From assembly GCA_903813345.2 (NCBI GenBank), contig CAIIXF020000010.1, positions 11,340,349 through 11,404,348 of the forward strand: a DNA stretch of 64,000 nucleotides, in the 5' to 3' direction. The notes under the pieces are model-generated. The model saw only the letters and a program-made list of their open reading frames with translations. It was not told the DNA's origin and made no database searches. Positions 33,356 to 60,159 of this stretch are shown here, in pieces. A program made the translations under genes and the position numbers. The first letter of the stretch is position 1. Each line of letters opens with the position of its first letter. The stretch comes from Owenia fusiformis. Its lineage: Eukaryota; Annelida; Polychaeta; Sabellida; Oweniidae.

Positions 33356-36300
33356 TTTAGACATATGAGTATAATATTTAGAGATGTTAGTATAATATTT
33401 AGAATTATTAGTATATTAGTGGATAGATTATAGAGATTAAACTGCTGCAAACTTCCCAAAAGACCTCAAGAAACTCTTTGGGTTTCTGTCAGTAGAATTA
33501 GATATCCAGTTATCACTATTGTTTTGCTTAAAACATAATTCAAACATGATCATGCTCTATTTGGATTTCTCATCCAATCAGATTGCAGCATAGTCATTTT
33601 CTAATTTTTGATAGATGCATGACAGTTTGTTATGGAATCTGCCCCTGGAATCTGCATTGTGATGTGACATCACATCAAGGGCTCTGTGGATGACAATGCA
33701 ATGCTCATAAGTTTTAAGTCCTTGTATGACAAAATCTGCATGGGTCCTTTATATTTACTGAATGTAATTGGATTTTAAACTCTGCATTACATTTCTGTGT
33801 CACTTGTTTGCAGCAGTGTAAAGTAGGTTATTTGTTGAGTCAATGTGTGTGCAATATGTGGAGATTAAGATCATACAATAGCATTGATGCTATATCATTT
33901 AGGTGAACATGATACTCTGGGGGATGTGTACATATACCACCTATCCAAGGGAAAATATTGAACAACACAAAGTTAAGTCTATTTTCATTTCCAAGGGTCA
34001 TCATGTATTTTATTATGCACCTTTCCATATACAGTATACAAAAATACTGGTTGGCTAGGGAATAAATCAGATTTTAGTATTTCCAATATTTCCCACCTCC
34101 AGGTGCATAATAAACAACTTGGAAGAAAATTGGAAACTGAAAGTGAAGTCACTCATAAAAGTCAGTTTTCATATTTGCAATTTGATCGGTCAGCTGCTGG
34201 TGAATTTTGAGTAAGCCTTGCAAAAGGTTACTGGATCTCCCTCTAACCTCACCTCTTATGAAGAATGTGTATGGTGGATTGGGAGATCACAAGATCTACA
34301 GTACAGTTAAATAACTCCAAATGCGTTTTACACTCTTGTTTACTCTTGATCATGTCTTTATACCTAGGTAACTTTACATACTTAGGGCATAAAAGTGACA
34401 TCATTCATTACTATGAAATGGGTTTGCATAAGACGTATGTATGTAGGCTAGACCTTTCTTTACTCCATCCAAGGTTAGACTATGTTATTTGTTTTGCCAA
34501 AGGTGGATCTTAAAATGTATAGGGACAGATCGTTATTGGTTCTTGTATACTGAAATATTCTAGGCTTTGGACCTAGAAAGAGGATAGGACAGAAAAATTA
34601 TTATACAGGCCCAATTGTTTTTTCCAGAATAAATTCTGATCTAGTTTCAAAAATTATCGTTTCCAAAATCTCGCATTCAGCCCCAAAGCTAAAGGTTATA
34701 TATATATGTTCATTGATAAATTGATTGATGTAAATAACTCAATTTTTTCTCAAAAGAGGGTGCAGGTAGTCAGTTATAGCATTCCCCAAATGCAGGAATC
34801 GCTCCATCACGTCCTATATATAGATTGGAGGAATCACTCCCAATGGAGAGTGAACTTTATAGATGAAAATGGGAGATTGAATATATTTTCTTTTTGTACA
34901 TAGCGGGTCTAAAAATATATTAAAACATATATCATATGAAACGAAATTGTATATTGATAACATATGTAGCATATGGCCTGGTATATTTAAAATATTCCAT
35001 TTATCAAGTTTTATTTAGTAAATGCCTATTACTAGTTTTAATTAAAGCTTTAATGCTAGGTACATTCCTATATTGTATTGTTTCATCTCTATTATGTAAT
35101 GCTGCTATTATTTGTAGGGTATGAAACACAATTGTTTGTTTTGTAAACATTCAAATCTAAGTTTTATTGATTTGATTAATAAATTGTAAAATAAAATAAA
35201 TAAATGAAAGGAAATTATAAAGAAATACAATGCTTTAATTTCTAAGTTGTGTGTAGTAAAACTTACAGAGTAGTCCCAAGTTAGGAAAGAATTTAAACAG
35301 TGAATAAATCTCGTTTACCCCTCCACCTCCCTAGTATTCCTCTAATGCAGATAAGAGATATATATTCGGGATGGGGTAGAGGCCTAATGCAAGTCTATTT
35401 CATGATTCATAATTATTTGTGTCTGACACGATTGATACAGTTTTATGCAGATAGAATATTTACGGGACAAAGTTTGTTTTCATGAAATATTCTGAAAACA
35501 TATAACGGTGAAGAAATAAGCACAAATACGTATATAGATTACTGGCAATGCGAAAACTACCTACTCATTTCACTAATTGCTACTCATTTTTAGGGTTTTA
35601 AAATTAAAGTAATAAAAAGAAACCTGCATGGGGCTACAAGAAACCCAGTAGATTGTCACATCGCCAGTATGAGAGAAGATAAAACGATCTGTTTTAAATG
35701 CTTCAAACCTCCAGAAATCTCTTGTAAAATGATAACACATCGAAACATCATGAACTTTCAGATATATTCTTCCAATAGATGTATGTGTTTCCTTATTTGC
35801 CATTTCCCGCATAAAGTAAACTGTTTGAATGGCAATTATGAATGAAAGTAGGTAAACATGAGAACTTTGTTTAATCATCGTAGATTAAATAATTGCGATA
35901 AAATGGTTAATGAAAAGGACAAAGCAGTGCATTATGGTATCATAAAAAAATATTTGGGCTCAACTTTCCTAAAGACACAGTATCATAATGCTTTTGCTAT
36001 GGAAAATGTTTTATCAAAGGTAGAGGTCATAACAACCCGACATCTCATCAATCACACCAATGATCATAGTATACACTGATTACTTGGTCGGATTTCCAGT
36101 ACTATAGAGAACACAAGAAAGATAGATGTGGGCGATCAATAGATGGCATGTACCGTACATCTAATTACTAGCCTTACACCATGCCATGTCGTCGGCATGC
36201 CGCCCGAATTTCGTGGTCAAATCGAACGCTTTTCGTGGTCACCGCGGGCGCGTCACGAGTGCGCTTCAAGCTCATCGCGGGGTAATTTCGTATGTACCAC

Positions 36301-36860
36301 GGAGTTGGTTCATTCGCGTAGCTTTCGCTCACCATTCGTTCCACGGACGCCACATTATATTTTCACGTAGTTACATTGTAAGTGTATGAAATTCCATTTA
36401 CTTACCCGATGGGCAAATGGTAAATCAGGTTTAAAACCATTATCTTTCAACGTACAATTACACGATCTTTCATTCCCAGTTCATTCCCAGTTCCCGATAA
36501 ACATCTGATGAATGAAGATGTATGCTTTCCATGTACATCACATTTTATTATACAATTGATAAGACTCTCTAAATAAGTCGCCCTAGACGGAAACAAATAA
36601 TTTAACAAAGCGTTTTTCGAAATTCTTTTTAAATCATCTGTTCCCATTTAACCGCAGCACAGTATAAATGCACATTTTTATTGGATAGTGAATTTAATCA
36701 ATGCGATGAATTTACGTGAAATTTACAGTCTGGTGCAGTATGTGAACAATCCCAGTAATCATTGTTGGAAATGCCTCTTATTAGCGTATCTAACGCAGCT
36801 AGCCTGGCGCATTACAGTACATAGTACAAGTGTCATTTCTGGCGAGAGGTCTTCATATAT
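33356..36860. other. Intergenic stretch, no supported gene
   Basis: AT-rich with only short chance ORFs. About 36185-36335 is a small CpG-dense island in an otherwise AT-rich region; no promoter elements or exon were recognised there. Confidence 0.5.
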
Positions 36861-38394
36861 AGTGGTGTATGTTTTATGTTCATGGTATGTAAATTGGAAG
36901 AGTTGTAAATTCGTTGTCTTTAGTAGCGTTTCTGCTTTATCGGAGTTTGCGGTATTTTCGTTTATAAAAATGGTATTGGTTTGGATGTGTGTAGTGTGAG
37001 TTTGTGGTGGGATCCCTGTTTGTCAAAGGTTTGGGTGTTTCGTCTTGTGTTTGAGCTTAGTGTTGATTTGTGTGACAGTGTGTAGTGGTGGTAGTATATA
37101 TTATTGTTAATATGTTTACTTGACAGGGGATCTGTTTTCCCGTGTCGGGTTGTATTTTGGTTTTATCGAAGTTTTGCAGTATTTTGGTTTGTAAATTTCG
37201 TGTATGTTTGGCGGCGTTTGTGGTATGTATGTGGTAGAAAAGTTGTTTTTCCATGAATTGGGTGTATAGTGTCATGTCTGAGGTTTACTTTGGTGTGTGT
37301 GTTATGGTAATAGCATCTCTTGTTGTTGAGATATTAACTTGATTTTGGAGGCTGTCTTCCCGTGATTTCATTATGTTTTGATTATCCCGTGTTTGTGATT
37401 TGTCGGGATCGTATGCGTATTGATTAATTGCATCAAGTTGTGGTCAGTTTGTTTGTTCGAATTTGTTTTGTTTGTTTGGTTTGTTTTTTACCCTTTATGG
37501 TTAGGTGTTTTTTATGTCAGTAGTGTGTGCGTTGGGGGAGTTGTTAGCTTGTTCGCAATTGTTTGTATTTTGGTTTTATCGGAGTTTTGTAGTATTTCGG
37601 TTTGTAAATTTCTTGTTTTATTTGTTTTGTGTGGCGTTTTTATATGTAAGTGGTAGATAAGTTGTTTTGCAACAGTTTGGGTGTGTAGTGTCATGTCTGA
37701 GGTTCATTTTGGTGTGTGTGTTATGGTAGTAGCATCTCTTGTTGTTGAGATATTAACTTGATTTTGGAGGCTGTCTTCCCGTGATTTCATTATGTTTTGA
37801 TTATCCCGTGTTTGTGTTTTGTCGGGATCGTGTATGCGTATTGATTAATTGCATCAAGTTGTTGTCAATTTGTTTGTTTGGTTTGTTGTTTACCCTTATG
37901 GTTAGGTGTTTTTTATTTTGATAGTGTGTGCTTTGGGGGAGTTGTTAGCTCGCTCGCGATTGGTTACGGTATTTTGGTTTTATCGGAGTTTTGTGGTATT
38001 TTGGTTTGTAAATTTCGTGTTTGTTTTGTGGCTTTTTTTGGTATGTAAGTGGTAGGTAAGTTGTTTTTCAACGGCTTGGGTGTGTAGTGTCATGTCTAAG
38101 CTTTATTTCGATGTATATGTTGTGGTCGTAGCATCTCTTGTTATTGAGGTATTAACTTGTTTCTGGGGGCTGTCTTACCGTGTTTTCAATTTGCTGATTG
38201 TCCCGTGTTTGTGTTTTGTCGGGATGGTGTATGCGTTTTGGTGAATTGTAGATCACGATTTTGTCGGTTTGTTTGTTAAAATTTGTTTCGTTTGTTTTGT
38301 TTGTTGATATGAGTTTTATATGATGTACGGGTAATGTGTTTGATAGTCTGTTGTATATGTTTGTGTTTTACATGTACTTCCATTGTTTTTTTAA

Positions 38395-39045
38395 GAATGG
38401 GCTGTTTCTAAATAGGGTTCCCGGTTGGGGAAACCTGGTTTGGTTGGTTGTTTGTGAGTAAATGCGTTGTTTTTTAAAATATGAATTGGAGTGAGTGTTT
38501 ATCTCCATAAGGTTATAAAGTGTATATATTTTTGTATTGCCGGGTCGGCAGAAAGATTGTTGAATATTCGGGACGCTGATAAGAAATGTTCGAAACACCA
38601 AGTGTGGTAAGATGGTACAGCCCTTCTACTACAAAATGTGTCCGATCGTTTTTGAGATGAAATATACTTGGTATTTGTCCATAAGCTGAGCAATGTGACA
38701 TACGAGGGTTGATCATAAAGTTCTCATAATATCTCTCTAATTTCTTTATTTTTCAATATTTTCCTATGAAATTTTCACAGAATGTGCAGCATGGAATGGT
38801 TTATTAATCCAGCTAACAATATTTAGAATAACGGAAACATTGAATGAGAAATGGTTGCCATAGTAACTTTAAATCAAGTTTTTTTATTTTTGGAAATGGT
38901 GACTTAGACAATGTCTTGAGACATCACCTGTATTAAACACGCACATGTCATGCAATCTGTGTTTATGGTGAGAGGTCTCAGTCGGGGGGCCTGGCAGGCA
39001 AGGTCTTGTAGCTAAGCTTCCCCTAACCACCGTCAGTACTCATGT
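38395..39045 (-). repeat. Copy 1 of a long direct repeat (possible Penelope-type pseudo-LTR)
   Basis: Shares with 41165-41685 the blocks GAAACACCAAGT, TTGTCCATAAGCTGAGC, GACTTAGACAATGTCTTGAG, CACATGTCATGCAATCTGTG and TAGCTAAGCTTCCCCTAACC, in the same order and orientation. A mariner-like end (TACGAGGGTTGATCATAAAG, 38701) is inserted in this copy. Confidence 0.7.
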
Positions 39046-39181
39046 GATGGGTAGTGTATATTTGGTAGATCCTAGGGTAATGACATTGGTGTGTTATTCC
39101 ATATCTTCGTTCACGTAGAGAGAGGCCGGACATCCCGATCCTGTAGCGGATCTTCTCCCTTATATGTTGGTCATTATAAGG

Positions 39182-39232
39182 GCCCAAGATGTTTCGAACT
39201 CATGGGGGTATCCCATGATTGTTCTTCCTCAG
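39182..39232 (-). ncRNA. Hammerhead-like core motif, unproven
   Basis: Read on the - strand: CTGAGGA, then a long hairpin (GAAC..TCATGGG pairing with CCCATGA..GTTC), then CGAAAC. This is the CUGANGA / stem II / GAAA order of a hammerhead core, but with an extra A after the first box. Stems I and III were not established. Confidence 0.3.
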
Positions 39233-40600
39233 CGGCCGAATGAATGTTGTATGTGATTTATTGTGATTTTATTGTGAATGATAATGCTGTTTTATTTCTA
39301 TCATTCTGTTGTATTTTAATAGGTTTCCCGTATTCGTTTTTAGCGGGAGGGGGGTGGTTGTTTATGCGTATTGGTTTATTGCATAAAGGCGTGGTCAGTT
39401 TATTGATGAATTTTAGTTTGGTTTGGTTTGTGGTTAAGCCATATGGTCATGTATGTTATATGTTGATATTGTGTGTATTTAAAGGGTTGTTGGCTTGTTC
39501 GTGTTTGGTTGTATTTTGTGGCATTTTGTGGTGTTTTCAATTTGTTGAGTTGGTGTGCGTTTGGCGGTGTCTGTGGTGGGTTGAGGGTAGGTAAATTACA
39601 TTTTGGTGGTTCAGGTGGTAAGTTTACTGTTTCAGCTTTCCGTTGGTATATGTGATATGTTGCTAGCATATCTTGTTGTTAAGATATTAACTTGAATGTA
39701 GGGTTTAATGGCCCGTATTTTAAATATTTTGGTTTTCATATATTTGTGTTTTATCGGGAGGGTGTATGTGTATTGGTTAATTGCATCGGGGTATGGTCGG
39801 TTCAATGTTGAAATTGGATCTGGTTGTTTTGTTCATTGTTTCAGCTTCATGGTCAGGTATATGTTATGTTCATATTGTGTGTATTAGAAGAGTTGTTGAC
39901 TTTTTCGTGTTTGGTCGTGTTTTGGTGTTTTCGGCATTTTGCGGTATTTTCGATTTGTTGAGTTGGTTTGAGTTTGGTGGTGACTAGGATGGGTCTATGG
40001 TAGGTAAATTGTCTTTTGATGGTTCAGGTGGCTTGTGTAATGTTTTAGCTTTCCGTTGGTGTGTGCATTATGTTCGTGGCATATCTCGTTGTTGAGATAT
40101 TAACTTGAATGTAGGGTTTGATGGCCCGTATTTCAAATATTTTGATTTTCTCATGTTTGTGTTTTATCGGGAGGGTGTATGCGTATTAGTTGTTGAAATT
40201 TTAATTTGGTTGTTTTGTTCATTGTGTCAGCTTCATGGCCAGGTATATGTAATGTTCATATTGTGTGTATTAGAAGGGTTGTAAACTTTTCCGTGTTTGG
40301 ACGTGTTTTGGTGTTTTCGGCATTTTGCGGTATTTTCGATTCTTTAAGTTGGTTTGAGTTTGGCGGTGTTTAGGGTAGGTCTATGATAGGTAAATCGTTT
40401 TTCTGTTGGTTCAAGCGGCTTGTTTAATGTTTTTGCTTCCTGTTGGTGTGTGTATTATGTTCGTGGTATATCTTGTTGTTGAGATATTAACTTGAATGTA
40501 GGATTTAATCGTCCGTATTTCAAATATTTTGATTTTCCCATATTTGTGTTGTATCGGGAGGGTGATGCTTATTGGTTGATTGTGTCTGTTTGTGGTTGGT

Positions 40601-40860
40601 TTATTGTTTAAGTCTGGTTTGGTTGTGTTGTTTTTTCGTTGTAGAGAACGGGTGTTTCGTTCTACTCGTTGTATGAAATGAGTATTTTAATCTAAGTTTT
40701 CTGGTAAAACTTAGAATGTCAGTCGGGAGTTCCCGCTCTAGTGTTTTTAAGTTTGGGGTGGGAATAAACTTGAGTCCCTTAGAGAGAACAAAGTGTTCTG
40801 CTTCTGACGGTGTGTAATCCGACAAGTTAACAACGAGCTTAGTTTTCGCTGCTTTGGTTT
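40601..40860 (-). pseudogene. Fragment of a reverse-transcriptase-type retroelement protein (Penelope-like, N-terminal segment)
   Basis: The - strand frame reads VVNLSDYTPSEAEHF, then LSKGLKFIPTP, then DILSFTRKLRLKYSF. The NLS-x-SKGL-F-PTP phrase is one I associate with the N-terminal part of Penelope-like and similar RT proteins in invertebrates. The frame then runs into low-complexity AC-rich sequence with no RT or GIY-YIG motifs. The family assignment is from memory. Confidence 0.5.
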
Positions 40861-41164
40861 TGTGTGTTTTATGAGTGTTTGAAAGGATGTATTGTTTTTT
40901 GGGCTTTGTAAAGTTTGTTGTTGCGTTTCCTAGCCATATTAGTAGTTAGGTTGATTCTTAGTTGTCAGTGGTACGTGTTATATGTGTATCAGTGGCCAAT
41001 TATGTATCTAGGTCACTGTAATTATGTGTGTATCAGGTATGTTCCTGAATTAAGTGTGGTTATGGGAGTAGTGATTAAGAAGACAATAGGAAGATTCCCT
41101 TGTTAGAATGTATATTTTGAAGTGTTGGTTTCGTGTTGGTTGTTATGAAGTAATTGTTTATATT

Positions 41165-41685
41165 TTGGTTTGGAAAGTGTTTTCCAGTCGGGGTATTATT
41201 TGGTTGGTTGTTTATGAGTAAATGCGTATTGTTTTAATTTGCGAATTGGAGTTTGTGTGTGTCTCCAAACTGTTGTGAGGTGTGTATGTTTTTTGTTGCC
41301 AGGTCGGCAAGATTGTTACATGTTTGGCACGCTGCTAAGGAAAGTTCGAAACACCAAGTATGGTAAGATGGTGCAGCCCCTCCTGTACGAAAATGTGTAT
41401 GATCTTTAATGAAATATACAAGGTAGTTGTCCATAAGCTGAGCGATGGGACCTAGCCCGAAGGTTTGGTACGCAGGTTATTCACTTATTATGGGTTTATC
41501 CTTATGGCTAATGGAGACGGCCCTAATATCATATTTTTGGGAGTGGTGACTTAGACAATGTCTTGAGACATCACCTGTATTAAACACGCACATGTCATGC
41601 AATCTGTGTTTATGGTGAGAGGATTGGGTCGGGGGGCCTGGCAGACAAGGTCTAGTAGCTAAGCTTCCCCTAACCAGGTGCATAT
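41165..41685 (-). repeat. Copy 2 of the long direct repeat
   Basis: Direct-repeat partner of 38395-39045, about 2.7 kb away. It ends where a mariner-like element is inserted. On the - strand it would precede the RT-protein fragment, as a 5' pseudo-LTR would. Confidence 0.7.
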
Positions 41686-42753
41686 ACGAGGGTTGTCCCA
41701 GAAGTAATGCACTATATGCTCTAACTTTCTTTAATATTCTTCAATTCAGCTGAAATTTTGTGTATACAACAATTGAAGTTTTATCTATTATATCCTGAAG
41801 TTTCAGCATCCAACATTAATATTAAGTCTTAATATGGTTGCTATAACAACATGGGGGTAGGGGTGGGCGGGGCAGGTATAATTTTTTCTAATTGTGAAAA
41901 GATCTAAAGTGTTATTTTATTAATATTTCTTTCCTTTAAATGGTCAAAATGTTTGGGAAATTGTTAAATTTATTCAGCATGATGTTACCCAAGTACGAAT
42001 AATGACATTTAGCACTGTGATTTCATAATACCACATTTCAATAGTCAAGAATTCAAATACAGTCACAGTCAAGAAATTGCAAAAATGGCTGCAATTCTCA
42101 CCTGATAACAGAAGGCCTTGCGTTTGGTGGCCTAATTTCATACTTCAATTGGACTCACAGCCATTCAAAACAATGCTATCATGAAGAAAGTATATAAGGA
42201 GTATATACCAGATAGAACTTCAATTATGGGGTGGCAGAAGAGATTTAAAAGAGACGACTTGACCCTGTATGACAACTCCAAACATGGGAGGCAAAAACTC
42301 CACAAGTCACAGTGGAAGAAATTGCCGAGAGTGTTTGACTTGACAGGCATCAAAAGAACATAACATGCAAAGGGCAATATTTTGAGAAAATGTGAAATGG
42401 GACACTGCAATATACATCCATTAAATCTAGGATGTGCTCATAGTAATTTAGTATCTTAAAATGTATTTTTGAGCATACTTCTTATAGCTACACCAAATGG
42501 TATTTGTTGATTAATCATTTCATATTTTCAATTTTTTATTCCTTTTGACGAGACTGTATAGCCTGCCCCGCCCTACCCAAACTCAGCGACTTGATTTTAT
42601 TATAACATCAATATAGTTTTATCAGTCAACATGAATTTTTTTTAGAATAATCAAAATGTCTCTAAGGAACATTTACTGAAAATTTCATGGAAAAATATCA
42701 ATTATTGATAAAGTTAGAGCATATAGTGCATTACTTCTGGGACAACCCTCGTA
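41685..42753 (+). mobile_element. Mariner-like element, 1069 bp, 44-bp terminal inverted repeats, decayed transposase
   Basis: Perfect 44-bp inverted ends beginning TACGAGGGTTGTCCCAGAAG, flanked by TA on both sides (41683-41684, 42754-42755). Inside, only a helix-turn-helix-like piece survives on the + strand at about 42181-42363 (KKVYKEYIPDRTSIMGWQKR and then KHGR). No catalytic DDD/E domain was found. The perfect ends with a wrecked gene imply non-autonomous mobilisation or a recent end-to-end transfer. Confidence 0.85.
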
Positions 42754-52936: not shown

Positions 52937-52942
52937 CACTTG
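52937..52942. repeat. Left target-site duplication CACTTG
   Basis: Identical to 60154-60159 and directly abuts the left terminus. Confidence 0.88.
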
Positions 52943-54543
52943 AGTAGTAATAGTCCGAGTAAATGATAATGCAATTTTAGGCACCAAATCAGGCACGAAC
53001 TTTGACCCCAGACGATTACCGAACGTTACGCCTACGTACGCCTACGCCTTACCCACGGGGCTGCATGGAGACTGGAGACTGGAACCTACAGTTTAGTGAC
53101 GTCTTTCATGGTTCCGTCCTATAGGACCCGATGATGAAATCTGATGAAATATGGGATTCCCCAACGTTTCTCGATCGTACCCCAACGTAATACGGGATTC
53201 CCAAACGTTTCCCGAACGTTTGACTTCCGTGGATGACTGATTGGTCGCTTGACTTCCGGAGTGAGGTCAGTGTGAATTTTCTCGGATGAGAAGCTCTGCT
53301 TGGTCAAATACGAATGATACAGTTTCGTAAAAGTAAAACGACTCTCGAACGTTTAGACGATATCAAAACGTCTTTTTGACGTCAGTGTTCCGTGGATGAT
53401 TGATACTCTCCGATCGTTCAGTTGACTTTCGGAGACAATTGATAAGATAATAAAACCAAATGACAAATGATTTATCTGTTACCTATTTCCTCTATAAAAA
53501 GTGACTATATAGCCTAGATTATAAAATACAAAATGGATAGAGGTTTGGCACTCATTACAATGAATATGGAAATAGATAGAAACGTTGTTACTACATATTT
53601 GTTCTTTGTTTGCCTAGTCTCAAACGTATTCTCCGACGCCGGGTGAAGAGATTTCCTACACCCCCACAGTTCCAACGCCCCCATCCCTGGTCATATAGGA
53701 CCTACTGGTATAATGTTCAACGTTTCTCGAACGTATTCTCCAATGCTGGATGAAATACAGGATTTCCTACACCCCCACACTTCCGTAACCCCGACAAACT
53801 ATGGACTTTACTTTCTACATTCCAAAATTAGGCAATGGAACAAAGTCGTAAAGCATGCAAAATTCTCTGTCATTTTTAAAGACATAATAGAATACTTTTG
53901 CTTTGATTTTGAATAGGCAAAACGTTTGTAATGCGTTTCAGAGTATTCGCTTCGTCATGTATTCTCTAAACTATTGATGTATAAGCTAGCTAAACACATA
54001 AACTATTTGATCATTCTTGGCGTATATCTGAAGATTAATTACCCAAATATAACTATTTAGGTTCCAGTTCTCAGTTCAAAATCATTAAAATAAGTATATA
54101 GTCTCACAACAACGGGACAATAATGTGTTAAAGTTCTGAAGAAATCTGATATTTTACAAAAACAAAGAATCCTTAACCAAGTGGCGAGATTCATGTAAAA
54201 AAGAATCAAGACAATTCTTTCACATATGACTACTTTAAGATGTATTGTTGTTTAGACTCGATAAAATGGAAGATACTTACTTAAATTTTACAAGCAATAG
54301 TCAGCGTTTCTATGGATTGAAAATCCCTATAGTGAAATGGATATATGTACATTAAATGACACGGGAAATTACAGCAAACATTAAAAAATATAGTTCTTCG
54401 TATGTACACTACATGCTCGGATTTTTTTGTTTTTCTTAGCGTAGTATGGGAAATACCATCACAACAGGAAATCCGGAGGTCAAAGCAACCCACATTAACA
54501 TAATACGACAGCCTACGTCACTCAATGTCTATCCTGGCTGTTT
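52943..54543 (+). repeat. Left terminal inverted repeat, 1601 bp
   Basis: Reverse-complement match to 58339-60153, ending inside at CCTACGTCACTC and ATCCTGGCTGTTT. It has many internal sub-repeats built on AACGTTTCTCGAACGTATTC and on TCCGTGGATGA. It lacks a segment of about 70 bp and an outer duplication of about 170 bp that are present in the right copy. Confidence 0.9.
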
Positions 54544-54587
54544 TGCCCATCCAGACAATGCTTTCACAGAGTTAACTTCCGCAATGA

Positions 54588-54595
54588 TATAAATA
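54588..54595 (+). promoter_or_regulatory. TATA-like box upstream of the small basic-protein gene
   Basis: TATAAATA 126 bp before the ATG, just inside the left inverted repeat. It is the best promoter candidate for this gene. Confidence 0.5.
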
Positions 54596-54720
54596 GATGT
54601 CAGTGTGATTAAGTACAGAAAGTTAAAAATTCGATTCCTCAATATAATATTATATATAAGGCTGATAATAGTTTCAACGCATTTCTTCACCGTTCACATT
54701 ACTAGAGACATCACAGGACC

Positions 54721-55095
54721 ATGAAGCTGGTACCCTATGTAGACAACGCGGAAAAGTGGCACAGGTTAATCAAAGCAGCCAGAGAGAATAGACTGTCGAC
54801 GCAAGTAGGCTTCGGAAAAAATCGTGCGAGCTACGTACCTGTCAGCGCAATCAAAGAACCCGTTCGGGTGGTATCTCCGATGCAAGCAGTTGTTGACAGA
54901 GCTAAAGCCCAAATAGAGCATCAAAAGAAGAAGGTGGAAGAAAATGATCCCTATCATACTAAGGTGTACAAACTTAAGAAACCGCGTAAAGATGCTGTTT
55001 CCAAAGCAGTGTTTAAGAAGAAAAACATTAGAAAAACCAGATTGGACTTGTATAGACCACCAGGTATCCCTGCGAGAGGGAGGAAAATGAAATAG
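54721..55095 (+). CDS. Small basic protein of the Polinton-type element, function unknown (124 aa)
   Basis: An intact frame with start context ACCATGA, a TATA-like box upstream and AATAAA at 55134, so it looks expressed and unspliced. The protein is Lys/Arg-rich. A helical N-terminal third (NAEKWHRLIKAARENRL) is followed by a likely coiled or helical stretch (AVVDRAKAQIEHQKKKVEEN). The tail is strongly basic (KLKKPRKD, FKKKNIRKTRLDLYR) and ends PPGIPARGRKMK. There are no cysteines, signal peptide or membrane segment. The charge pattern would suit a DNA-binding core or condensing protein, but that is inference. I do not recognise a family. It faces the ATPase gene, 299 bp apart. Confidence 0.8.
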   Translation: MKLVPYVDNAEKWHRLIKAARENRLSTQVGFGKNRASYVPVSAIKEPVRVVSPMQAVVDRAKAQIEHQKKKVEENDPYHTKVYKLKKPRKDAVSKAVFKKKNIRKTRLDLYRPPGIPARGRKMK

Positions 55096-55133
55096 GACTG
55101 ATATAATTGTCATTTTTCTATTTTGAATTAGGC

Positions 55134-55139
55134 AATAAA
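55134..55139 (+). terminator. Polyadenylation signal AATAAA for the small basic-protein gene
   Basis: AATAAA 39 bp after the stop codon on the same strand. Confidence 0.6.
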
Positions 55140-55330
55140 ACAGTGATAAATGTATATTTTTCTAGTTTTGTTATTATAAGAAACATTCATTATATCATAA
55201 TAAATAACTTTCTTACATATAAGGGAGAATTTGCTTGTAACATAGCATTGTGGAAGGGAGTGTATATCCAATACTTCAGAGGTAGCACGCTATAATTCTA
55301 AAAGAGGGTAGATTAATTTTAACAAAAACA

Positions 55331-55340
55331 TTTATTTATT
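55331..55340 (-). terminator. Polyadenylation signals for the ATPase gene
   Basis: Overlapping TTTATT on the + strand is AATAAA on the - strand, about 55 bp beyond the ATPase stop. The two convergent genes thus end in the same short spacer. Confidence 0.6.
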
Positions 55341-55394
55341 TATTTACTAATACTCGTACAATGTGTTTCTTTTAGATCCAGTCTGCTGGGTATA

Positions 55395-57080
55395 TCATCG
55401 ATTGTCCTCATTTCTCTCGCTATCAGATTCATCTTCGCTCGTAGAATGTTTTTCATTATCTGATTGTTGTTGTTGTTCATCACTGGACTCTTCACTTGTA
55501 GATTCATCATCAGCGAACAATTCTCCAGCCAAATATGAATATTTGTTTAGTGTTTTCTTGACTGCTCTTGATTGAGTCATGCCTTTCGCCAATAGTGCCT
55601 CCACTTCATCCATAATATCACGATGAACTTCACTGTACCTTAACCCCAGTATATATGACAGAAGCTCTCCATAGTGTTTCAAGAATAGCTGTCTGGCACC
55701 AAACACAGATTTCTGTCTGACTCTTTCAACCGCTTTTTTGGATGACATTCCTCTTTCTTTATACTTCTCGACCAGTTCATCCCAATCATCTTGTAGCTCA
55801 TCGATTACTTTATCTTTAATGCGATTCAAAGTTACATTATCCTTCAAGTCTTCAGTATGGAAATCACATCTCATGACATCGTTTTCATCACTTTCCCTCA
55901 ATTCGGGACAATGCCTTCTGTGTTCCCTCACGTCGAGTGGTGACAACATCACTACACCACAATCCGTACAATGAGGGGTAGACATTGTCGTGGCAGGTAT
56001 GTTAGGTTGATTGTTCATCGTGTAACCAATACTTGGATTCATTGTGTTGTACATGGTTGGATTCGCCATATAGTACATCCTCGGATCAGGATTCATCTTT
56101 GATTCTGCAGCGATGGGTGTTGTACTGTAGTTTGCTCGGTTGATTTTATCGAATGGTTCTTGATTTAAATTTACGCCTCTTCTTATATCCACGCTATTAC
56201 ACGGTATTGTGCTATATATTGGTGTTTGGTCCTCTTTGCCGTGAGAATAAAGTGCCGAAGATACGCCTATTGGTTGTTCAATAGTAGCTGCAGCAACATC
56301 GTACAATCTCATATTTTCGGGAGTTTCTTGTTTCAGATCTACCAGTAGATATCCATATGGGTGTTGAGTAGCCTTTTCGTAAGCATCCAATAATTTCTTA
56401 GAATTTCCAGGATACATCTGATGGGCTAATACGGCCACCTGTTGGCGATCCCTAGGATTTTTATACAACACTATGTAGTGGCAGTTTAGGCTCATAGTTC
56501 TGCTTTCACGACCATGATGAAATAGATTCTGCATCAGACAGATGACACTCAAATTTCTATGGTGAGAACCCTTAGTGTAGAGCTCAGAGATTCGCTTATC
56601 TTTAGTCATATCAGCCATTAGATCGTCGAAAATGATTAGATTTCTAACATTGACATCCAGGAAACTTTGGTCACCCAATGACTCTGGAATTCCCATGATA
56701 AATTCTATATTTTGAAAGCGGGTCTTTATTTCGACGTACATGGGCTGCCACTGTCCGAAGCACCAAATTATCCGTTGTGGGGGAGGGGTTATCTTTTTCT
56801 CCATATTTTCTATGAGTTCTCTGACATAGGTAGACTTGCCCGAACCTGTTGGACCAACCACCATCATCGTAAAGGGATGGTGAAGCATCTTTGTCCTATC
56901 ACCATTGCATGGGTTAGCTGCCGAGTTTGTCATTGAATAAAATCCCCCATGATGCCGTTCGCAAGATGGCGCCATGATACGTTTTTTAGGTCCATGATCT
57001 ATTCTCTTATGACGATACATGCTGGTTGCATGACTGAATGTCTTCCCACACTCGCATGAATAGGAAGAACTATGAGGCAT
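55395..57080 (-). CDS. Packaging-type (A32/FtsK-HerA-like) ATPase with zinc fingers, Polinton type (561 aa)
   Basis: An intact single-exon gene. Residues 9-29 form a C2H2-type finger (C9, C11, H24, H29). The ATPase core spans about 65-260, with Walker A GPTGSGKST (76-84), a WCFGQWQP strand (106-113), Walker B NLIIFDDLM (147-155) and a sensor-like GSHHRNLSVICLMQNLFHHG (171-190). A second C2H2-like finger (C371, C374, H387, H390 or C391) follows a Met/Asn/Pro-rich spacer. The C-terminal 140 residues are helical, ending in an acidic Ser/Glu-rich tail. In relatives this ATPase pumps the genome into the capsid. The core is typical of invertebrate Polinton/adintovirus ATPases; the two fingers and the acidic tail are extra. 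The first ATG directly precedes the finger. Confidence 0.9.
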   Translation of the reverse strand: MPHSSSYSCECGKTFSHATSMYRHKRIDHGPKKRIMAPSCERHHGGFYSMTNSAANPCNGDRTKMLHHPFTMMVVGPTGSGKSTYVRELIENMEKKITPPPQRIIWCFGQWQPMYVEIKTRFQNIEFIMGIPESLGDQSFLDVNVRNLIIFDDLMADMTKDKRISELYTKGSHHRNLSVICLMQNLFHHGRESRTMSLNCHYIVLYKNPRDRQQVAVLAHQMYPGNSKKLLDAYEKATQHPYGYLLVDLKQETPENMRLYDVAAATIEQPIGVSSALYSHGKEDQTPIYSTIPCNSVDIRRGVNLNQEPFDKINRANYSTTPIAAESKMNPDPRMYYMANPTMYNTMNPSIGYTMNNQPNIPATTMSTPHCTDCGVVMLSPLDVREHRRHCPELRESDENDVMRCDFHTEDLKDNVTLNRIKDKVIDELQDDWDELVEKYKERGMSSKKAVERVRQKSVFGARQLFLKHYGELLSYILGLRYSEVHRDIMDEVEALLAKGMTQSRAVKKTLNKYSYLAGELFADDESTSEESSDEQQQQSDNEKHSTSEDESDSERNEDNR

Positions 57081-57181
57081 GTTGACTTCTCTATTACTAA
57101 TAGTTAAATGCTAATATTTTCAAAGTATCACTATTAAATAACATCAATTTGGTGAACATCTCTGAATATGTAGCACACATA

Positions 57182-57775
57182 GTGAACATGCTACTGACCA
57201 TAAGTGAACATGCTACTGACCATAAGTGAACATGCTACTGAACATTAGTGAACATGCTACTGAACATTAGTGCACAATAGTGAGCATACTAGTGAATAAT
57301 AGTGAACATGCTACTAAACAATAGTGAACATGCTTCCGAACATTAGTGAACATGCTACTGAACAATGGTGAACATGCTACTGAATAAAAGTGGACATGCT
57401 ACTGAACATTAGTGAACATGCTACTGAACAATAGTGAACATGCTACTGAACAATAGTGAACATGCTATTAAACAATAGTGAACATGCTATTGAACATAAG
57501 TGAACATGCTACTGAACATTAGTGAACATGCTACTGAACAATGGTGAACATGCTACTAAACAATAGTGAACATGCTACTGAACATTAGTGAACATGCTAC
57601 TGATCAATGGTGAATATGCTACTGAATAATAGTGGGCATGCTACTGAACAATAGTGAACATGCTACTGAATAATAGTGAACATGTTACTGAACAATGGTG
57701 AACATGCTATAGAATAATAGTGGACATGCTACTGAACAATAGTGAACATGCTATTGTACAATAGTGAACATGCTA
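57182..57775. repeat. 22-bp tandem array, about 27 units, inside the Polinton-type element
   Basis: TGAACATGCTACTGAACAAT plus AG units with small variants. The array begins about 100 bp upstream of the ATPase start codon and is unique to the element's interior. Confidence 0.93.
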
Positions 57776-57779
57776 GTTC

Positions 57780-58320
57780 AAAATTAGAAATACAATTGAA
57801 AATTTTTGAAAGGGTAAAAAGTTTGCTGTGCAAAAATGAAGTGTTCTGACATCTTATGGTCTTAAGATCGACTAAAGATGCTGAAATAAGTGAAAATGAA
57901 ACAATAAAATTGAAAATATTTGCAAGGGTAAAAATTTTATTATACAAAAATGAAGTGTGTTGACATCGTATAGTATTCATATGGGTTAAGGATGCTGAAA
58001 TAAGTGAAAAATGAAAAGTAAAATTGAAACTTTTTGCAATGGTAAAAAATTATGATACAAAAATGAAGTGTATGGACATCTTATAGTCTTTATATGGGTT
58101 AAGGATGCTGAAATAAATGAAAAATATAATTGAAAATCTTTTCAAAGGTAAAATATTTGTTGGTCACATATGTAGTGCGCTGACATCATAAAGTCTATAT
58201 ATGGACTAAATATGCTGAAATAAGTGAAAAATGAAATGTAAAATTGAAAATGTTTGCAAGGGTAAAAAATTGTTAAAACAAAATGAAGTATTCTCATATC
58301 GTAAAATATGTACAGGCAAA
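57780..58320. repeat. 104-119-bp tandem repeat, 4-5 units, inside the Polinton-type element
   Basis: Units contain AAATTGAAAATTTTTG-type, GGGTAAAAA, AAATGAAGTGT and TGCTGAAATAAGTGAAAAAT blocks. It fills the space between the 22-bp array and the right inverted repeat. Confidence 0.85.
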
Positions 58321-58338
58321 ACTATTTATCTAACCCGT

Positions 58339-60153
58339 AAACAGCCAGGATAGACATTGAGTGACGTAGGCTGTCGTATTATGTTTACGAGGGTTACTTT
58401 GACCTCTGGATTTCCAGTTGTGATGGTATTCCCCGTACTACGCTAAGAAAAACAAAAGACGAATATTTAGTGTATACATGTACACGTAGAACTATCTATA
58501 TTTTCAATATCTTGCTGTCATTTCCCGTGTCGTTTAATGTAGAAATATCCATTTCACTTTAGGGATTTCACTGCATTTCACGTAGAAACGCTGACTTTTG
58601 CTTGTAGAAGTTTAGTAAGTATCTTCCATTTTGTCGAGACTTAACAACAATACATCTTAAAGTAGTCATCTGTGAAAGAATTGTCTCGCCACTTCCTTAA
58701 AAATTCTTTATTTTTTTTATAAAATGTCTTTTTTAGAACTTTATGACACATTGTTGCCCCTTAGTTGTAAGAATATACTTATTTTAACGATTTTGTTGAC
58801 TGACTTAACTGAGAACTGGGCAATAAATAGTTACATTTGAGTAATTAATCTTAAAATATATGTCAAAAATGATCAAATAGTTCATGTTGGTTTAGAGAAT
58901 ACATGAGGAATCGAATACTCTGAAACGCATTTCAAACGTTTTGCCTATTCAAAATCAAAGCAAAAGTATTCTATTATGTCTTTAAAAATGACAGAGAATT
59001 TTGCATGCCTAGCTTTACGACTTTGTTCCATTGCCTAATTTTGGAATGTAGAAAGTAAAGTCCATAGTTTGTCGGGGTTACGGAAGTGTGGGGGTGTAGG
59101 AAATCTCGTATTTCATCCAGCATTGGAGAATACGTTCGAGAAACGTTGAACATTATCATCCAGTAGGTCCTATATGACCAGGGATGGGGGCGTTGGAACT
59201 GTGGGGGTGTAGGAAATCTCTTCACCCGGCGTCGGAGAATACGTTTGAGAAACGTTGGTAGGATGTTGATATGTGACATACAGATTTCTTGCTGTGATGG
59301 TATTCCCATACTAGGCAAACAAAGAACAAATATGTAGTAACAACGTTTCTATCTATTTCCATATTCATTGTAATGAGTGCCAAACCTCTATCCATTTTGT
59401 ATTTTATAATCTAGGCTATATAGTCACTTTTTATAGAGGAAATAGGTAACAGATAAATCATTTGTCATTTGGTTTTATTATCTTATCAATTGTCTCCGAA
59501 AGTCAACCGAACGATCGGAGAGTATCAATCATCCACGGAACACTGACGTCAAAAAGACGTTTGGATATCGTCTAAACGTTCGAGAATCGTTTTACTTTTA
59601 CGAAACTGTATCCTTCGTATTTGACCAAGCAGAGCTTCTCATCCGAGAAAATTCACACTGACCTCACTCCGGAAGTCAAGCGACCAATCAGTCATCCACG
59701 GAAGTCAAACGTTCGGGAAACGTTTGGGAATCCCGTATTACGTTGGGGTACGATCGAGAAACGTTGGGGAATCCCATATTTCATCAGATTTCATCATCGG
59801 GTCCTATAGGACGGAACCATGAAAGACGTCACTAAACTGTAGGTTCCAGTCTCCAGTCTCCATGCGGCCCCGTGAGTAAGGCGTAGGCGTACGTAGGCGT
59901 AACGTTCGGTAATCGTCTGGGGTCAAAGTTCGTGCCTGCTTTGGTGCCTAAAATTGCATTATCATTTACCCGTTGGGAAATCCCATATTTCATCATCAGG
60001 AAATGTTGAGGAGTGATCCAACCAGTCAGATTACAGTCATCCATGGAGGTTAAACTCTGACGTCACTAAACGTTCGGCAATCGTCTGGGGTCAAAGTTCG
60101 TGCCTGATTTGGTGCCTAAAATTGCATTATCATTTACTCGGACTATTACTACT
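58339..60153 (-). repeat. Right terminal inverted repeat, 1815 bp
   Basis: Partner of 52943-54543. The stretch 59621-59809 and its left counterpart 53119-53307 encode the same 62 residues in one frame, so identity is very high there. The outer end has a partial duplication: ATTGCATTATCATTTAC with its preceding GGGGTCAAAGTTCGTGCCTG block occurs at about 59918-59972 and again at 60071-60140. Confidence 0.9.
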
Positions 60154-60159
60154 CACTTG
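60154..60159. repeat. Right target-site duplication CACTTG
   Basis: Identical to 52937-52942 and directly abuts the right terminus. Confidence 0.88.

Follow-up and report, generated by a model that had tools for sequence, protein, structure and literature searches.

Structure of the element

The stretch of the Owenia fusiformis genome analyzed here (64,000 nt, C10:11340349-11404348, referred to as the window) contains a short element with Polinton-type ends and two intact genes, one encoding a packaging-type ATPase and the other a homolog of a gene from the Polinton capsid block. The element covers positions 52943-60153 (7,211 bp), is flanked on both sides by CACTTG and carries the same 20 bases, inverted, at both termini. 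A first-pass annotation of the window had described these duplications together with AG...CT ends, inverted repeats of 1,601 and 1,815 bp and two intact genes. All of these features were recovered, the genes as open reading frames (ORFs) of 124 and 561 amino acids (aa). The features of the element are as follows.

52937..52942, no strand: left target-site duplication CACTTG (end pairing and flank comparison)
52943..54543, plus strand: left terminal inverted repeat, 1,601 bp
52943..53103, plus strand: terminal module, 161 bp, matching the end of an 18.6-kb Polinton of the same genome at 98% identity
54159..54308, plus strand: weak relic of the left-end 110-aa gene of the 18.6-kb Polinton (h110), inside the left repeat
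54588..54595, plus strand: TATAAATA, upstream of gene 1, which we take by eye to be a TATA-box-like motif
54721..55095, plus strand: gene 1, 124 aa, basic, intact
55134..55139, plus strand: AATAAA behind the gene 1 stop, found by eye, presumably a polyadenylation-type signal
55331..55336, minus strand: AATAAA behind the gene 2 stop, found by eye, presumably also a polyadenylation-type signal
55395..57080, minus strand: gene 2, 561 aa, Pox_A32-type ATPase, intact
57177..57775, no strand: 22-bp tandem array, beginning about 99 bp upstream of the ATPase start
57780..58289, no strand: 114-bp tandem array, flanked by the 22-bp array and the right inverted repeat
58339..60153, minus strand: right terminal inverted repeat, 1,815 bp
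60154..60159, no strand: right target-site duplication CACTTG (end pairing and flank comparison)

The two genes are convergent and lie tail to tail. The two tandem arrays are additional to the features given in the first-pass annotation. The arms of the inverted repeat pair with about 99% identity in their outer part (663 nt) and about 85% in their inner part (962 aligned columns), which suggests that the ends are homogenized more often than the inner arms. An additional partial copy of the terminal segment is found in the right arm (59901-59969 versus 60069-60137, 97% alike).

The coding content was examined by tblastn with 17 proteins from two Polintons of the host genome (E up to 1e-3). Only gene 1, the ATPase and the weak h110 relic were matched in the window. 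At the protein level the relic is 43% identical over 51 residues (E 0.001), and the DNA at the same place is 74% identical over 149 columns. Neither the two integrase queries nor the two PolB-type queries matched in the window or in the 20 other loci with a related mini element described below. The same holds for the capsid-like and minor-protein queries from both Polintons and for the protease query, which was taken from the 18.6-kb element only.

Copies and families in the host genome

A search of the host genome (498,259,871 bases in 525 contigs, labeled C2, C10, C12 and so on) with gene 2 yielded at least 121 matching stretches, with 78 of 268 candidates scored. The window element and 20 other loci with at least 75% gene-2 identity were taken as the set of mini elements. 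The further copies with the same two-gene content for which the first-pass annotation had proposed to look are thus present: there are at least 21 on 12 contigs, which fall into families A (14 copies), B (four; L023, L024, L025, L031) and C (three; L026, L027, L028). Gene 1 lies, whole or in part, near gene 2 in all 20 other loci and is complete in 19 of the 21 copies; gene 2 is complete in 12 (six of family A, three of B and three of C). Both genes are 78-82% identical between families, whereas in the same blastn comparison none of the seven B and C loci was matched over at least 80 nt by the family-A inverted repeats. Among complete family-A copies, protein identity is 96-100%.

Across all 21 copies the 17 tblastn queries matched gene 1, the ATPase, the h110 relic and a 220-aa gene (h220), and nothing else. 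The weak h110 relic is found in 9 of the 14 family-A copies. Interrupted h220 is found in three of the four family-B copies, where its main stretches share about 80% identity with the gene in the 18.6-kb Polinton. Two family-B copies (L023, L024) contain telomere-like TTAGGG repeats inside their inverted repeats. At L019, a 422-aa ORF (243-1511) ends inside the start of the mini element and is possibly an interrupted host or transposon gene. Related ATPase genes also occur as neighbors, about 9.7 kb apart at C2:31065286/C2:31074941 and about 2.5 kb apart at C10:22418275/C10:22420803, possibly in tandem or nested Polintons.

Element ends were located in 24 loci by a script that looked for AGTAGT starts and ACTACT ends at a distance of 4.5-9.4 kb and paired them if at least 14 of the inner 20 bases agreed, regardless of whether the flanks were identical. 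Ends were paired in 16 loci, namely 15 mini elements of 5,547-8,123 bp and an 8.7-kb element. All 16 (15/15 mini elements, the window included) have perfect 6-bp duplications, each of them different. The script left unpaired the mini elements L020, L022, L023, L025, L030 and L031 as well as L032 and L033, which are not mini elements. By eye, L023 has ATCTCC on both sides; the end pairs of L020 and L030 are 9.4 and 12.9 kb apart, with one end each outside the stretch scanned. The terminal 18-mer AGTAGTAATAGTCCGAGT has 19 exact matches in 498 Mb and its reversed control none. The matches belong to seven complete mini elements (14), one end of L022, the 18.6-kb Polinton (two) and the 8.7-kb element (two). 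Chance is excluded by the 15 perfect duplications in 15 paired copies together with the 19 matches of the terminal 18-mer against none for its control. Scans of IMG/VR for ATPase relatives, the terminal 18-mer and a Polinton capsid plus integrase returned no locus.

The encoded proteins

Gene 2 matches Pfam PF04665 (Pox_A32) with E 3.5e-11, above the curated cut-off, and scores 20.8 bits against Adeno_IVa2, below the cut-off of 21. The protein consists of an N-terminal C2H2-like finger, an A32-type ATPase core, a second conserved Cys/His motif and a helical, acidic C-terminal region. The first cysteines of the finger are one residue apart, and the Pfam zf-C2H2 match reaches an E of 0.58 only. 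Columns that are invariant across 26 relatives include the Walker A lysine and the Walker B Asp-Asp. The AlphaFold model has a mean predicted local distance difference test score (pLDDT) of 67, with high values for the ATPase core and for the helices at the C-terminus. The five PDB entries that it matches best are B204 genome-packaging NTPases of Sulfolobus turreted icosahedral viruses (STIV/STIV2; best E 6.9e-7), with TM-scores of 0.58-0.62 by target length and 0.24-0.25 by query length. Judged by sequence and predicted fold, gene 2 is a packaging-type ATPase, and its role in the mini elements would presumably be packaging as well.

A search of about 5.8 billion proteins yielded at least 443 gene-2 relatives (7,998 candidates scored). 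Among the 120 matches listed, those with a named organism come from bivalves, with the exception of one protein that bears the name of a Solemya gill symbiont; the closest are 34-38% identical over most of their length. The Solemya-symbiont protein (P0034) looks like host contamination. Contigs L001 and L002 (QGON01) and L003 (JACCHT01), which are part of tubeworm and mussel symbiont metagenome-assembled genomes, likewise carry animal-type Polinton genes that probably stem from host contamination.

Gene 1 had been described in the first-pass annotation as a basic protein. By sequence comparison it is homologous to a capsid-block gene: the homologs in L034 and L033, the two full-length Polintons read, directly precede the capsid-like gene, with tblastn identities to gene 1 of the window of 59% (L034) and 44% (L033). 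A protein search with gene 1 alone returned no relatives; with five gene-1 homologs it returned three, two of them named Owenia fusiformis. With a mean pLDDT of 59, confidence in the AlphaFold model of gene 1 is low, and no fold is derived from it.

Full-length relatives and an 8.7-kb derivative

The 18.6-kb Polinton is located at C2:18845524-18864097 (halves L034 and L035) and has TATATC on both sides. The window element is identical to it in the first 60 bp and 98% identical in the first 161 columns. Its inverted repeats comprise only about 206 bp, compared to 1.6-1.8 kb in the window. The ORFs are arranged in the order 110, 300, 220 and 149 aa, gene-1 homolog (123 aa), 443 aa, 147 aa, integrase (357 aa), ATPase (220 aa), 113 and 108 aa (h108), with a 1,244-aa ORF on the opposite strand. 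The integrase matches Pfam rve above the cut-off and has a chromodomain, and the ATPase matches Pox_A32 above the cut-off. The 147-aa ORF scores 15.3 bits against the adenovirus endoprotease, below the cut-off of 21.3. The 443-aa ORF is 35% identical to the corresponding ORF of the Escarpia-associated contig L002. The 1,244-aa PolB-type ORF aligns over 1,103 columns, at 36% identity, with an L002 protein that matches Pfam DNA_pol_B_2 above the cut-off in the stretch 1111-1203.

The second full-length Polinton (L033) encodes on one strand a PolB-type ORF, an ATPase, an integrase, a 138-aa ORF, gene 1 and a capsid-like ORF. PF03175 has 11 matches in the genome, none of them at these two Polintons. 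At L032, which belongs to a 47% ATPase family, only the ATPase was matched by the 17 proteins within the 11.5 kb read.

The 8.7-kb element (L036, C12:17302752-17311452) is flanked by TTCGTC on both sides and is built from pieces of the 18.6-kb Polinton, to which the long ones show 97-99% identity and one (601 columns) 95%. The left end is followed by a segment from an integrase remnant to the ATPase and h108, then by a stretch with a 99-aa ORF that by eye resembles the PolB end of L002, and finally by the segment from gene 1 to the end, inverted. Its inverted repeats measure 1,241 bp (99.7% identical), and ATPase and gene 1 are convergent as in the mini elements. The element has no intact integrase and no tblastn match to the capsid-like or protease-like queries. 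Since it nevertheless has its own 6-bp duplication, mobilization in trans does occur in this genome. L036 appears to be a fresh copy-back rearrangement of a linear replicon and as such a snapshot of how the mini-element plan may have originated.

Mosaic origin and probable exchange of ends

The ATPase of the mini elements is 37% identical to that of the 18.6-kb Polinton, compared to 59% for gene 1. In a tree of ATPase cores, families A, B and C group together (support 93) and are joined by the ATPase of L033 (99) and then by that of L032 (100); the ATPase of the 18.6-kb element is distant. In L034 and L033, gene 1 and the ATPase share a strand and are separated by other genes, whereas they are tail to tail in the mini elements, so that at least one inversion is needed and deletion alone does not suffice. 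An origin of the mini elements by internal deletion of the 18.6-kb element was rejected on the two identity values, the opposite relative orientation and the tree placement, and descent from L036 is ruled out by the same tree. From these comparisons, the mini element is a mosaic, its ATPase being of other origin than the Polinton whose ends it carries.

Within family A two end types are found. Type 1, the module of the 18.6-kb Polinton, occupies both ends of seven copies and one end of another. Type 2, AGTAGTATAGTGTGCGTA, is found in six copies and is directly followed by TTTCATGGTTCCG in the four copies read. In the window, TTTCATGGTTCCG, the sequence that in family A follows the other end type, starts at 53104 (element position 162), directly behind the terminal module. 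A tree of the interiors interleaves the end types: the type-2 copies L016 and L018 group with the type-1 copy L029 (support 98), and the type-2 copies L015 and L021 pair with each other elsewhere in it (99). The end junctions lie at differing points of the common repeat, near positions 17, 100, 131 or 67, 274, 86. The ends of family A may have been exchanged several times, or once with later deletions and recombination; more than one exchange seems likelier. The genome-wide matching of terminal 18-mers covered these two end types, both of family A.

Selection on the two genes

Ratios of nonsynonymous to synonymous substitutions (dN/dS) were calculated by the Nei-Gojobori method as pair means, for gene 2 from the 12 complete copies and for gene 1 from 18 of the 19 complete copies (L030 excluded). 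Between families, dN/dS is 0.28, 0.30 and 0.31 for gene 2 and 0.16, 0.38 and 0.16 for gene 1. In all six comparisons the chi-square p is 3.7e-4 or lower, a value to be taken as a guide only because the ratios are means of related pairs. Purifying selection on both genes is thus visible between families at the level of the coding sequences. The tail-to-tail order is common to A, B and C and absent from both full-length elements. Given this shared order, it is simplest to assume that the elements came under this selection once they had been reduced. The selection suggested by the first-pass annotation is therefore borne out for both genes between families (0.16-0.38), and packaging or interference as the selected function continues to be a suggestion.

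Tandem arrays upstream of ATPase genes

All 16 mini elements tested (of 21) have a tandem array upstream of the ATPase gene, the nearest one ending 77-134 bp before the start. Of random points in the window, about 5% have an array whose end lies 60-160 bp upstream. The unit sequence varies between families. Arrays are likewise found at L032 (113 bp) and L033 (106 bp). Among 14 further ATPase loci of the host genome, they are present at L050 (119 bp, TGTTCAC units), L046 (77 bp), L037 (152 bp, CCT), L045 (135 bp, AGG) and, in CCG-rich form, L042, L043 and L044 (75-111 bp). At L039 and L040, where no finger was found, the nearest array is 350 bp upstream, and at L038, L041 and L047-L049 the ATPase start could not be placed. 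No such array lies upstream of the fingerless ATPases of L034, L001 and L002. Contrary to this association of finger and array, none was found at the finger-bearing relic L003 on the mussel-associated contig.

A probable satellite-like Polinton lineage and its alternatives

The mini elements combine features of autonomous Polintons (6-bp duplication, Polinton-type terminal repeats, packaging ATPase) with ends that they share with a full-size Polinton and with repeated insertion without a recognizable integrase of their own. The window element thus probably belongs to a mosaic, non-autonomous and satellite-like Polinton lineage that is mobilized in trans. From the gene content we infer that it replicates and spreads only by means of a helper. 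The 21 copies and the Polinton ends support the helper-reliant lineage proposed in the first-pass annotation, with the amendments that gene 1 is more than an anonymous basic protein and that the element is a mosaic. A single copy produced by internal deletion of one neighbor, which that annotation had considered as an alternative, is at odds with 21 copies in three diverged families that all have the same two genes, and the termini do match those of another Polinton, the 18.6-kb element.

A possible course of events is the following. The 18.6-kb Polinton or an active sister would supply PolB and integrase, acting on the common ends, as well as the capsid, and the satellite would contribute its own packaging ATPase and the product of the capsid-adjacent gene. 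Both genes would be kept by selection, either for promoting entry of the short genome into helper particles or for handicapping the helper. Rearrangement of the copy-back type, as in the 8.7-kb derivative, could have created the long inverted repeats and the convergent arrangement of ATPase and gene 1. The ATPase with its upstream repeats would have been acquired from a different Polinton lineage, and in part of family A the ends would have been replaced by those of the present 18.6-kb Polinton. By analogy with the adenovirus packaging domain, it is conceivable, if rather doubtful, that the finger-bearing ATPase reads its own array and diverts helper capsids to the short genome, with helpers being changed by swaps of the terminal module.

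Several observations weigh against a satellite lineage of this kind. Gene 2 is broken or altered in 9 of the 21 copies. Long inverted repeats are not general, the arms measuring about 560-690 bp in two copies of family B and about 80-290 bp in two of family C. Within families, dN/dS indicates weaker constraint, with values for genes 2 and 1 of 0.37 and 0.43 (A), 0.36 and 0.28 (B) and 0.56 and 1.03 (C, few changes), and part of the selection signal could be older than the reduction if the families were reduced separately. No full-length element has the exact AGTAGTATAGTGTGCGTA end; its 12 genome matches are the ends of the six mini elements (reversed control 0). On the side of the presumed helper, the 1,244-aa ORF itself has no Pfam polymerase match and aligns to the L002 protein only up to about residue 1,130 of 1,397. 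The polymerase gene may thus be interrupted, since the ORF stops before most of the polymerase stretch (1111-1203) of that protein. About 4.3 kb at the right end of the 18.6-kb element lack an ORF of 90 aa or more. The sole full-length element with these ends may therefore be inactive. The 443-aa ORF and its L002 counterpart have no Pfam match, a profile of the two proteins has no PDB sequence match, and from gene order and size we take this ORF to be a capsid gene.

Among the alternatives, it is unlikely, although it fares best, that the main function of the ATPase is to regulate by binding DNA or to interfere with the helper, and not to package the satellite. The finger-like N-terminus and the array 77-134 bp upstream in 16 of 16 mini elements, against about 5% at random, would fit such a function. 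The core, however, has Walker motifs, its closest solved structures are genome-packaging NTPases, gene 1 is of the virion type as well, and the finger-bearing relic L003 has no array.

An ordinary deletion derivative, in which the two genes are young and unselected passengers of an internal deletion, is less probable still. Such an origin would explain the damaged gene-2 copies and the family-C ratios of 0.56 and 1.03; with family-A proteins 96-100% identical, the open frames could reflect youth, and with L036 a rearranged derivative of a full-length element exists in the same genome. It does not account for three families with unmatched repeats that have the same two genes at dN/dS 0.16-0.38, nor for an ATPase that differs from that of the Polinton sharing the ends.

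A split or bipartite Polinton, in which the mini segment provides an ATPase and gene 1 missing from the other segment, would agree with the packaging or virion type of both genes and with ends common to a larger element; it is refuted for both full-length Polintons read, each of which encodes an ATPase and a gene-1 homolog, and is very improbable overall. A chance assembly of unrelated repeats or an assembly artifact, for which nothing speaks except that tandem arrays are hard to assemble, is practically ruled out by the gene pair at 21 places on 12 contigs and by duplications that differ wherever ends were paired.

Comparison with known systems

Deletion or MITE-like (miniature inverted-repeat transposable element) non-autonomous DNA transposons are mobilized in trans via common ends. 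Unlike them, the mini elements retain two protein genes under purifying selection, one of which comes from another lineage than the ends. Phage satellites such as phage-inducible chromosomal islands and Staphylococcus aureus pathogenicity islands (PICI/SaPI) have few genes and their own packaging factor and depend on a related larger virus. The resemblance is an analogy in the way of working only; the mini elements differ in their animal host and in an integrase that would be borrowed from the helper. Virophages and Polinton-like viruses are hyperparasites, and virophages carry their own capsid genes. What the mini elements share with them is life as a satellite on the fringe of the Polinton world. 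A capsid gene of their own was not found in the mini elements with the two Polinton capsid-like queries; virophage capsids themselves were not used as queries.

The mini elements share with Polintons/Mavericks the 6-bp duplications, inverted repeats, an A32/FtsK-type ATPase, a capsid-block gene and common ends. They differ in length, 5.5-8.1 kb compared to the 15-20 kb given for Polintons in PMC4028283, and in having no PolB, integrase, protease or capsid match. Nine Polintons without a capsid gene are reported to lack protease and ATPase as well (PMC4028283), and the gene loss of the mini elements is the opposite of this. In adenovirus, the packaging domain consists of repeats between the inverted terminal repeat and the first gene, and IVa2 is an ATPase of the packaging complex (PMC5033970). 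The mini elements resemble this arrangement in their repeats between inverted repeat and first gene, in their packaging-type ATPase and in the sub-threshold Adeno_IVa2 match of gene 2. They differ in that the array sequence varies by family and that binding of the array by the ATPase is putative. By this analogy one may speculate that the array is a packaging or control signal. Among the titles and abstract openings of the open-access literature matches listed, no such two-gene element is named.

The mini elements bear on the question whether animal Polintons still form virus particles. Their loss of every recognizable gene but a packaging motor and a capsid-block gene, both under selection and combined with the ends of a full-size Polinton, would be difficult to account for if packaging played no role in nature. 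The mini elements and the presumed donor of their ends offer a testable helper-satellite pair in an animal, the fresh derivative of the copy-back type would show how such elements can arise, and end swapping is a possible way of changing the helper.

Elsewhere in the window, positions 36000-42000 show a GC skew of 0.25 to 0.38 and an AT skew of about -0.3 over 6 kb, which differs from the rest of the window.

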